A DNA stretch of 46,463 nt. It comes from Deltaproteobacteria bacterium. Lineage in GTDB: Bacteria > Desulfobacterota > Syntrophia > Syntrophales > UBA2210. Below are positions 37,389 to 46,282 of this stretch, piece after piece. The translations under genes and the position numbers were made by a program. The notes below the pieces were generated by a model. It was not told where the DNA came from and did no database searches. It worked only from the letters and a program-made list of their open reading frames with translations. Where the stretch lies: assembly GCA_019313385.1 (NCBI GenBank), contig JAFDBG010000012.1, positions 1-46,463 of the forward strand. The letters run 5' to 3'. Each line of letters begins with the position of its first letter. The first letter of the stretch is position 1.

Positions 37389-38609
37389 CTACTTTATTCC
37401 ATACTCCTTCCCATACGTCTCAACCACAAAATCTATATCCTTGTCTCCTCTGCCTGACAGGTTTACCAGTATGGTTTTGTCGCTGTCGAGAGTCCCCGCC
37501 AGTTTCGTCGCGTATGCCACAGCGTGGGCGCTTTCCAGAGCGGGAATTATCCCCTCAACCCTCGAAAGTTCAAAAAACGCGTCGAGCGCTTCCCTGTCAT
37601 TCGCCGTTACATATGTAACCCTCTTTATATCCTTGAGGAGACTGTGCTGGGGGCCGACGCTCGGATAGTCAAGACCGCTCGCGACGGAATATACAGGTAG
37701 AGGCTCTCCATCTTTGTCCTGAAGCATATAGGAATTGAACCCATGAAGTACGCCGGGTGTGCCAAGTGTCAGGGTTGCCGCATGTTCACCATCTTTAAAG
37801 CTGAGTCCTGAAGGTTCAACTCCGTACATGGAGACATCTTCATCTTCCAGGAAGGCAGTAAAAAGCCCTATCGCGTTGGAACCACCACCAACACATGCCA
37901 CCAGATTATCGGGCAAGCCGCCTGTAATTTCTTCAAACTGTTTCCTTGCCTCTATGCCGACCACCGCTTGAAAGTCCCTGACCATCATTGGGAATGGATG
38001 AGGCCCCACAACGGAACCGATGGCGTAGAACTGGGTAACAGGATCTTCGAGATACGCTTCAAATGCCGCGTCAACCGCGTCTTTGAGTGTCTTTGTGCCG
38101 CGTGACACGGGGATAACATCTGCACCCACAATCTTCATCCGGATGACATTCGGATGCTGTTTGACTATATCAACTTCGCCCATGTAGATATCGCATTCAA
38201 GTCCCACAAAGGCAGCGGCCGTCGCAAGCGCCACTCCATGCTGGCCCGCTCCCGTCTCCGCGATAATCTTCTTTTTACCCATTTTTTTCGCGAGCAGAGC
38301 CTCGCCCAGGCAGTGATTTATCTTATGCGCGCCGGTATGGTTCAGATCCTCTCTTTTTAAATATATGCGCGCGCCGCCACATTTTTCCGAAAGAGATTTC
38401 GCGTAAAAAATGGGGCTGGGTCTTCCCACATAGTCTTTATACAATGACGACAGCTCATCTTTAAAGCACTCATCATTTTTTATTTTGCTGTATGCTGTCG
38501 CGATTTCATCCAGCACTTGCTGTATCTGCGGCGGCACAAAACTGCCGCCATATTCTCCGAAGTATCCCGTCTTGTCGGGCATTTCCACTGATCCTAAATT
38601 CATGCTCAT
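37389..38609 (-). CDS. trpB: tryptophan synthase beta chain (TrpB1 type)
   Basis: [48 protein letters not shown]. Confidence 0.96.
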
Positions 38610-38610
38610 C

Positions 38611-38889
38611 CTATTCTATTCCTCCATAGTATCTGTTAAGTATTTTTTTTGTGATCGAATTATCTTTCTTCAATATCTTCGAACCTCTGGTGATCTTGCA
38701 GAGACTTATTCCATGCTTTGCCGCTATATTCCTCTGGGTATGGCCCTCGCTGAGCTCCCTCAAAAGCTTCCAGCGAAGGACGAAATCCTCGATTTCTTTC
38801 GGAGTGAGAATTTCTTCAATAAATGACTTCATTTCCTCAAAATCAGATATCTCTGTAAATATCTTTACAAGCTCGTCTCGAGAAACCAT
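38611..38889 (-). CDS. Trp-repressor-like DNA-binding protein
   Basis: [47 protein letters not shown] matches TrpR fold pattern; immediately precedes trpB1. Confidence 0.88.
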
Positions 38890-38899
38890 TTTGCCCCCC

Positions 38900-38919
38900 T
38901 GTTTCTACGGGCAGAAACA
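38900..38919. promoter_or_regulatory. candidate TrpR-like operator, copy 1
   Basis: TGTTTCT-ACGGGC-AGAAACA, perfect 7-bp arms, 6-bp spacer, 10 bp upstream of the trpR-like ATG; matching site at 45475-45494. Confidence 0.65.
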
Positions 38920-39126
38920 TATATAAACAAATTACAAATAGCAAGATATTTTTCAGAAAAAAAAGAAACAGACTGAATGGATGACTGGATGGATGGATTC
39001 CATTGTTGAAACTCACCAATTGGTGAGCCTCAATACCTGAAACCTGGCGCGGAAAAGGGAGTGGACTGTTTGTATGGCTTTAGTTTCTTGAAGGAACCCT
39101 GCAGAATTGACAGGGCATCTATCGCT

Positions 39127-43847: not shown

Positions 43848-45209
43848 TTATAGTTTTGGATATTGCCCGACTGTCTTCTTCGCCCGATCGATCTCACTTT
43901 CAGGAAGCACATAATCTGTAAGCTTTCCGGAAAGGTATGCATCATACGAAGCAAGATCAATGAGCCCGTGGCCGCTCCAGTTGAAAAGGATTACCTTTTC
44001 TTTTCCCTCTTCTTTGGCACGCCTTGCCTCATCAACAACGGCAGCGATTGCGTGATGTGTTTCAGGAGCAGGAATGAACCCTTCCGTTCTCGCCCATTTT
44101 ACACCAACATCAAAGGTCTCAAGCTGATGGTAAGCCCTTCCCTCAATAATATTTTCTTTAGCAAGCTGGCTGACAATCGGCGACATGCCATGATATCTGA
44201 GACCCCCGGCGTGAATCGGAGCGGGAACAAAATCGTGACCGAGTGTATACATGGGCAGTAGAGGTGTTTTCTGTGAGAGATCTCCAAAGTCGTAAGCATA
44301 GGGCGCTCTGGTTATTGTCGGGCATGATGCGGGTTCGGCGGCAATTATTGATATATCTTTACCGTGAATCTTATCCCTCACATAGGGCAGGCACAGCCCG
44401 GCGAAGTTACTTCCACCGCCAGCGCAACCGATTACAACATCAGGATACTCACCAATCTTTTCCATCTGCTTCTGGGCTTCCAGCCCGATAATAGTCTGAT
44501 GCAACATGACATGATTCAGAACACTTCCGAGGGAATACCGTGCATTTTCGTCACCGAGCATATCCTCGATTGCCTCGCTTATGGCGATACCTAGACTTCC
44601 AGGTGAATCGGGGTTTTCAGCAAGTACCCTTCTCCCCGTCTCCGTCAAGTTACTCGGACTGGAGAAGCACTCGGCGCCCCAGGTTTGCATCATCAGCCGC
44701 CGGTATGGCTTCTGATCATAACTGACCCTTACCATAAATACCCTGCACTCAAGGCCAAACATCTGGCATGCCATGCTCAGCGCGCTTCCCCACTGGCCTG
44801 CACCGGTTTCAGTGGAGATTCTTTTTACTCCGGCCATTTTGTTGTAATAAGCCTGGGCTATAGCAGTATTTGGCTTGTGAGAACCAGCCGGGCTCACTCC
44901 CTCGTTTTTGTAATAGATCTTCACCGGTGCATCCAGAAGCTTTTCAAAATTATATGCCCGATATAACGGGCTGGGTCGCCATAACAAATATTTTTCCAGA
45001 ACCTCTTCAGGAATATCTATCCAGCGCTCTGTGCTCATCTCCTGTTCAAGAAGAGCCATCGGGAAGATCGCGGACATATCATCCGCGCTAAGAGGCTTTC
45101 CAGTTCCCGGGTTAAGGGGTGGGCTCATAGGGGTCGGCAGATCGGCCTGAATGTTATACCATTGCTTCGGGATTTCACTTTCATCTAAAAATACCTTTGT
45201 CTGTCTCAT
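43848..45209 (-). CDS. trpB2: TrpB-like pyridoxal-phosphate enzyme (TrpB2 type)
   Basis: [71 protein letters not shown] 45209 preceded by aaaggagg. Confidence 0.93.
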
Positions 45210-45296: not shown

Positions 45297-45327
45297 AAAA
45301 ACGCCATGGAAAAATCCCATGGCGTTT
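45297..45327 (-). terminator. second terminator between trp leader and trpB2
   Basis: Minus strand aaaacgccatgg-gattttt-ccatggcgtttt then gttttt; 12-bp stem. Confidence 0.65.
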
Positions 45328-45338
45328 TATGACTGAAT

Positions 45339-45366
45339 AAAAAACCGTGGGAAACTCCGCCCACGG
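45339..45366 (-). terminator. trp attenuator terminator (3:4 hairpin)
   Basis: Minus strand ccgtggg-cggagttt-cccacgg-tttttt. Confidence 0.85.
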
Positions 45367-45414
45367 CCGGTAAATATTTCGGTACCTACGTGGACAGATC
45401 AGAGCAGACCTGCC
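45361..45414 (-). promoter_or_regulatory. trp attenuator 1:2 hairpin and 2:3 antiterminator region
   Basis: 1:2 = ggcaggtc-tgctct-gatctg(t)cc (45414-45392); 2:3 = ccacg-ta-ggta...tacc-ggc-cgtgg (45393-45361), competing with the terminator for cgtgg. Confidence 0.75.
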
Positions 45415-45454
45415 ACCACCAGAAAAACCTGTTTTTTATTTCAAAATGCACCAT
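45386..45454 (-). CDS. trpL: trp leader peptide MVHFEIKNRFFWWWQVCSDLST
   Basis: 22-aa ORF with three tandem TGG codons (45413-45421) directly before mutually exclusive hairpins and a terminator upstream of trpB2. Confidence 0.85.
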   Translation of the reverse strand: MVHFEIKNRFFWWWQVCSDLST

Positions 45455-45474: not shown

Positions 45475-45494
45475 TGTTTCTATGTACAGAAACA
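45475..45494. promoter_or_regulatory. candidate TrpR-like operator, copy 2
   Basis: TGTTTCT-ATGTAC-AGAAACA; arms and spacer length identical to 38900-38919; downstream of a minus-strand TTGACA (45514-45509). Confidence 0.65.
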
Positions 45495-45601
45495 CAGCTG
45501 AAACCGAATGTCAAGCAAAAACAGCCTCCCTATACTCCCATCACAAAAAAGGAAGTTCTTATCAAAAAATCAAACAAATAGTTTAATCATTGAGTAGTAA
45601 C

Positions 45602-46282
45602 ATGGAAAAATACGATATAAGAAAATATATAGAAAAATATATCCCATCAAAACAAACCGTAAAAAGAGCGGCAGTGACCGGTTTAGCAGCACTAACAATT
45701 ACCACAGCAACAGCAACCCTTACAGGATGTCCTCATGCAAACCAATCCCCAGGCGCGTATGACAGCCTTGACATTGACAGCGGAGGCGGTTGTTGTTTCC
45801 CAGCAGGCACCAAAATTTCAATGTCCGACAACTCTCTAAAAAATGTCGAAGACGTCCAAGCCGGAGACACCGTAATAAGTTTCGACGAAGAAAACAAAAA
45901 ACTAGTCAACGCAAAAGTTCTGGAAGTCGAGTCCCCAATCCGAGACCACATCTGCACAATATCTTTCGATAACGGAGAAAAGCTAGACATCACAGACGAC
46001 CATCCCATCTTCACAAAAGACGGCTGGAAATCAATCAATCCAGAAGCAACCCTAAAAGGCGGGCGATACAAAATACCAGTAACAAAACTAGAAGAAGGAG
46101 ACGAAGCCTTCTGCATTAATGGAAACTATATGAAAATCTTAGATATCAAAAAAGAAATGAAAAAAACCCAAACCTTCACTCTGAAATATGTTGATAAATT
46201 TCATAACTTCTTCGCCGATAATGTTTTAGCACATAATTGCGGCGGAGGCGGAGGCGGCGGAAGCGGCGGCGGCGGACAATAA
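45602..46282 (+). CDS. predicted lipoprotein with minimal Hint/intein-like domain and Gly-rich C-terminal tail
   Basis: Lipobox ATLTGC; CFPAGTKISMSDNSLKNVEDVQAGDTVISFD (block A), LDITDDHPIFT (block B), VDKFHNFFADNVLAHNC (blocks F/G), then GGGGGGGSGGGGQ. ATG at 45602. Confidence 0.87.
   Translation: MEKYDIRKYIEKYIPSKQTVKRAAVTGLAALTITTATATLTGCPHANQSPGAYDSLDIDSGGGCCFPAGTKISMSDNSLKNVEDVQAGDTVISFDEENKKLVNAKVLEVESPIRDHICTISFDNGEKLDITDDHPIFTKDGWKSINPEATLKGGRYKIPVTKLEEGDEAFCINGNYMKILDIKKEMKKTQTFTLKYVDKFHNFFADNVLAHNCGGGGGGGSGGGGQ

Follow-up and report, generated by a model that had tools for sequence, protein, structure and literature searches.

The window (the whole 46,463-nucleotide stretch of DNA analyzed) carries on its minus strand trpR, trpB1, and trpB2, and the palindrome TGTTTCT-N6-AGAAACA, itself without strand, lies ahead of the first and the last of these genes (Table 1). 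The exact repetition put forward in the original prediction was borne out: the 7-bp arms are identical and the spacer is 6 bp in both copies, while flanks and spacers differ, indicating that the copies are not a duplicated block. Instead of random scatter, the genome-wide motif scan proposed as a check returned only these two perfect copies, at trpR-trpB1 and trpB2, in the 2,146,530-base assembly; the next best matches had 2 mismatches. The closest named records are metagenome-assembled genomes labeled Syntrophales, Syntrophaceae, Syntrophobacterales, or Deltaproteobacteria, which makes an uncultured Desulfobacterota member of the order Syntrophales the most likely source of the window.

Predicted operator 1 ends 10 bp before the trpR ATG (38889). 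The TATATA that it touches is a possible −10 element, and a promoter scan of the trpR promoter found no match to the full sigma-70 consensus. Predicted operator 2 lies 14 bp past the TTGACA, so that a −10 element at 17-bp spacing is expected inside the palindrome, and is followed after 20 bp by the ATG (45454) of a short leader open reading frame (ORF). Both promoters were searched for an E. coli-type operator, and neither contained one.

The TrpR protein scored above the curated PF01371 cut-off of 27 bits and was the only PF01371 member in the window's genome. Its score of 50.9 bits against the TrpR equivalog TIGR01321, under the curated 67.25, marks it as related to that model and outside it.

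Table 1. Genes and predicted regulatory features at the trpR-trpB1 and trpB2 loci
Feature	Position	Strand	Basis or remark
trpB1, tryptophan synthase beta	37389..38609	−	TIGR00263, 549.9 bits; one base after trpR
trpR, 92-aa Trp-repressor-family protein, recognition helix SLCKITRG	38611..38889	−	Pfam PF01371, 56.6 bits, E 2.7e-15
Predicted operator 1, TGTTTCTACGGGCAGAAACA	38900..38919	strandless	Before trpR-trpB1; kept ahead of trpR orthologues
TATATA, possible −10 of trpR promoter	38920..38925	−	Sequence; touches operator 1
trpB2, TrpB-like PLP enzyme	43848..45209	−	TIGR01415, 668 bits; NF009057, 742 bits
Second terminator in series, segments 5:6	45298..45328	−	Between attenuator and trpB2; 5′ arm complementary to segment 4
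Attenuator terminator, segments 3:4	45343..45368	−	Fold and terminator analysis, alignment
trp leader peptide, MVHFEIKNRFFWWWQVCSDLST, three Trp codons at 45413-45421	45386..45454	−	Sequence
Predicted operator 2, TGTTTCTATGTACAGAAACA	45475..45494	strandless	Within trpB2 promoter; follows trpR presence among relatives
TTGACA, −35 of trpB2 promoter	45509..45514	−	Sequence; cTTGACA kept in seven aligned relatives

Conservation of the palindrome and its predicted targets

Phylogenetic footprinting, the other check proposed, found the motif kept at orthologous promoters. A sample of 60 relatives, the window's genome among them, contained 18 genomes with TrpR; of the 17 others, 12 fall outside genus g3. 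With at most 1 mismatch, the motif lies just 5′ of the trpR start in all 12 of these same-order orthologues, a count that comes from related genomes and not from independent events. Among 80 trpR homologues from GTDB genomes of Desulfobacterota and other phyla, 42 carry a site of 2 mismatches or fewer no farther than 150 bp from trpR, and 38 have none by this measure; the 42 include members of Desulfobacterota, Neomarinimicrobiota, Zixibacteria, Spirochaetes, and KSB1. Conservation of the half-site consensus TGTTTCT is 90% or more at every position but the outermost T, which is at times C. In family f49, trpR mostly lacks an autoregulatory site, and in genus g3 the trpR gene is located elsewhere and has no site. 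Most Spirochaete sites have diverged in one arm: the trpR promoters at L169, L177, L180, L194, L195, L207, and L213 retain one good arm (e.g., CGTTTCTCTCAGTAGTATTA), and several of the diverged sites come after TTGACC.

The motif (at most 1 mismatch) occurred 5′ of trpB2 in 7/9 genomes with TrpR compared with 0/21 without it (30 trpB2 upstream regions; Fisher P = 1.8e-5, relatedness ignored). The two exceptions were G007, with no site, and G013, with a 2-mismatch site only. A perfect site precedes trpEGDCFBA in the congeners G004 and G002, and in genus g3 the trpE, trpB, and trpB2 operons carry the site; sites at trp genes in genomes whose trpR is located elsewhere and lacks autoregulation indicate that the motif tracks the protein rather than the locus.

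A second sample of 296 genomes from the phylum contained 13 with TrpR above the cut-off, the window's included; the 12 others were scanned, and 11 were read for gene neighborhoods. The site stands ahead of trpE, trpD, trpB, or trpB2 genes in 10/11 of these further TrpR-containing Desulfobacterota genomes, which again are related genomes and not independent events. Three of the 11 also have a site at DAHP synthase, which has none in the window's own genome. Motif matches in the TrpR-lacking genomes that were read did not lie near trp genes. The trpE operon of the window's genome (contig C60:28379-31005) has a leader attenuator and no operator, unlike that of G004 and G002, where trpE has both. 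The predicted target set across genomes thus comprises trp biosynthesis genes, trpR itself, and DAHP synthase, the targets of a classical TrpR. A 1-mismatch site at a solute-binding/ABC-transporter region of G004 (L119) was not counted, because it was found in a single genome and overlaps an ORF start.

G004 also has a second trpR copy (L026/L142, contig C95) that is near-identical to the trpR of G006 (L015/L143), and each of these two genes is reported with one in-frame TAA. Since contamination of the G004 assembly is estimated at 6%, the second copy may be a stray contig.

The original prediction assigned the site, as an operator, to the neighboring Trp-repressor-fold protein, which would thereby regulate both its own gene and trpB2. 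This is supported by the orthologous promoters, by the co-occurrence of the trpB2 site with trpR, and by the trpE, trpB2, and DAHP synthase sites in genomes where trpR is elsewhere. We put at roughly 0.94 the probability that the TrpR protein encoded beside the palindrome uses it as its operator, one belonging to a new sequence class. Alternatively, a different regulator of the trp genes could bind the palindrome, with trpR merely one of its targets. The scarcity of sites at trpR itself in f49 genomes would fit this alternative, as would the fact that binding of TrpR to the site is predicted from sequence, but sites at trp genes occur only in genomes holding this TrpR class, even those with trpR elsewhere, the 20-bp palindrome has the published shape of a TrpR-family operator (PMC9413887), and no second PF01371 protein is present to take the role. 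We consider control by another regulator very improbable.

Residues of the TrpR protein and relation to known repressors

The recognition helix of this TrpR class differs from GIATITRG of E. coli TrpR. Positions 79 to 81 are L-C-K in 81 aligned sequences versus I-A-T in E. coli (I79L, A80C, T81K), an invariance that is possibly biased, as the 80 GTDB loci were partly selected by the search seed CKITRGSK; two unbiased TrpR sets agree on the helix, and one has SLCRITRG. In the same alignment, Arg69 is invariant, and the Trp-pocket residues T44, R54, R84, and G85 show little or no variation; Thr83 is kept in this class, and two positions that contact Trp in E. coli have changed (L41 to E/D and S88 to I/V/L). 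In the E. coli TrpR-operator structure, Arg69 contacts the G of the outer TGT. The two systems would form a natural matched pair of changes, helix residues 79 to 81 against the inner bases of the operator, with the expected Arg69-G contact unchanged, and Trp repressor specificity thereby becomes directly testable by swaps.

Comparison with the E. coli operator consensus (PMC9413887) upheld one part of the claim that the arms depart from the E. coli core and qualified another: the inner bases differ (half-site TGTTTCT here, TGTAcTnGT there), whereas the 20-bp length and the TGT/ACA ends are common to both (TGTAcTnGTnnACnAgTACA in E. coli, TGTTTCTnnnnnnAGAAACA here). Shared with the E. coli/gammaproteobacterial TrpR are also membership in the Trp_repressor family, the residues Arg69, Thr44, Arg54, Arg84, and Gly85, autoregulation and trpE, trpB, and DAHP synthase targets (here as predicted sites), and an attenuator on a target operon. 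In contrast to E. coli TrpR, the protein has one residue fewer before the helix-turn-helix, its gene pairs with a lone trpB or trpB2, and it occurs in Desulfobacterota, Neomarinimicrobiota, Zixibacteria, and Spirochaetes.

A PF01371 protein with a lineage-specific 20-bp palindrome has been described in HisR (YerC), which occurs in Firmicutes and other phyla (PMC9413887), and the protein studied here could instead be a repressor of the HisR/YerC type, with histidine or some other ligand as its signal. The two have in common the Pfam family and a 20-bp palindrome with a 6-bp unconserved center and a lineage-specific consensus, and the YerC model TIGR02531 gave a weak match (32.9 bits, under its 42.2 cut-off). 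However, the targets here are trp and aro genes, and the T44, R54, R84, and G85 positions are essentially unchanged, as are Arg69 and Thr83, which are Tyr and Ser in HisR; only two of the nine Trp contacts are retained in HisR, which has the consensus cacTTTAnnnnnnTAAAgtg, his targets, and histidine as co-repressor (PMC9413887). A HisR-like identity is thus a still remoter prospect than that of a different regulator. Chance occurrence of the two palindromes and membership in a small dispersed repeat are both refuted by the comparison, for although matches with at most 2 mismatches in the window's genome are no commoner than those of a reversed-pattern control (7 versus 15), only about 0.008 perfect copies per genome are expected under a uniform model, flanks and spacers differ, and the site is conserved at orthologous promoters across phyla.

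A trpR gene followed directly by a lone trpB (about 70 to 94% identical to trpB1) recurs in distant phyla, at many of the loci L137-L216, and at L173, L183, and L191 trpR is directly followed by trpB2, in Neomarinimicrobiota and KSB1. The patchy spread of the trpR-trpB pair suggests horizontal transfer. In Chlamydia trachomatis, trpR likewise heads an operon that includes trpB, namely trpRBA, and represses it (PMC7755916). The likeness drawn here concerns gene order and repression, and the Chlamydia operon differs in being also under an iron-dependent repressor and in including trpA, which is outside the operon here.

A survey of Proteobacteria described TrpR as gammaproteobacterial and absent from other classes (PMC5343134), and a search of open-access papers turned up no previous account of this TrpR class or of the motif. 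The occurrence of the same site before tryptophan genes in several phyla is almost certainly a new version of the known TrpR switch, one that extends beyond its known range. With it, Desulfobacterota, Neomarinimicrobiota, Zixibacteria, and Spirochaetes gain a TrpR class for which an operator and a regulon are predicted, and trp regulation can be annotated in many uncultured lineages.

The trpB2 leader and a model of tryptophan control

The trpB2 leader has the hallmarks of a ribosome-mediated trp attenuator, the function of which is predicted: a run of Trp codons, 1:2, 2:3, and 3:4 pairings, and a terminator. In the antiterminator 2:3, GTCCACG (45389-45395) can pair with CGTGGGC (45359-45365). 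The leader RNA folds with z = −4.4 and contains two strong terminators; an Rfam search of the window gave no match. Leaders containing WW precede trpB2 in most relatives, whether or not these have TrpR, which makes attenuation look like the older control, with the operator following the repressor. The trpE leader peptide of the window's genome is MKNTISRANNWWCWQNSMGRFVYR.

Across the order, trpE and trpB2 leaders often have a second terminator, placed after the attenuator and ahead of the gene (e.g., trpE leaders L278, L279, L283, L284, and L285 and trpB2 leaders L057-L065; L278 is that of the window's genome). In 11/13 leaders tested, the pairing of segment 4 with the 5′ arm of the second hairpin equals or exceeds that of the top 3% of shuffled arms. 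This suggests, as a hypothesis, that the attenuator works as a six-segment relay: once the first terminator is relieved, the second would be relieved too. The 5:6 hairpin is more stable than the attenuator hairpin 3:4, and the relay would therefore have to act during transcription.

In the model we favor, the TrpR protein would bind the palindrome with tryptophan as co-repressor, and binding would repress. Each recognition helix of a TrpR dimer carrying tryptophan would take one half-site. Since the sites overlap or touch the −10 region at both promoters, binding should block RNA polymerase, and when tryptophan is plentiful TrpR would silence trpB2 as well as trpR-trpB1, the operon to which its gene belongs. 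At trpB2, ribosomes reading the three leader Trp codons would set the attenuator, so that this gene would be under two controls, predicted operator and attenuator, a refinement of the original prediction. A broader reading, to which we give even odds, is that a multi-phylum TrpR subfamily marked by the SLCKITRG helix governs lone trpB and trpB2 genes through its own operator, layered on a six-segment relay attenuator at trpB2 and trpE, where release of segment 4 would break up the second terminator further downstream.

Neither trpA nor the indole-3-glycerol phosphate synthase gene (IGPS, trpC) was found in the window's genome. Indole salvage was considered on these grounds and rejected; the genome has trpE, and contig C60, which carries it, breaks off within trpD, so the missing genes probably reflect an assembly gap. 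Both trpA and trpC are likewise missing from G006, G007, G023, and G041, and the first three have no trpE match; indole salvage is possible in these four genomes.

Divergent from trpB2, a small ORF on the plus strand (45590-46282) encodes a lipoprotein-like N terminus (LTGC), a Hint/intein-type domain (CFPAGTK...HNC), and a short glycine-rich tail at its end; its product is possibly a bacterial intein-like protein.
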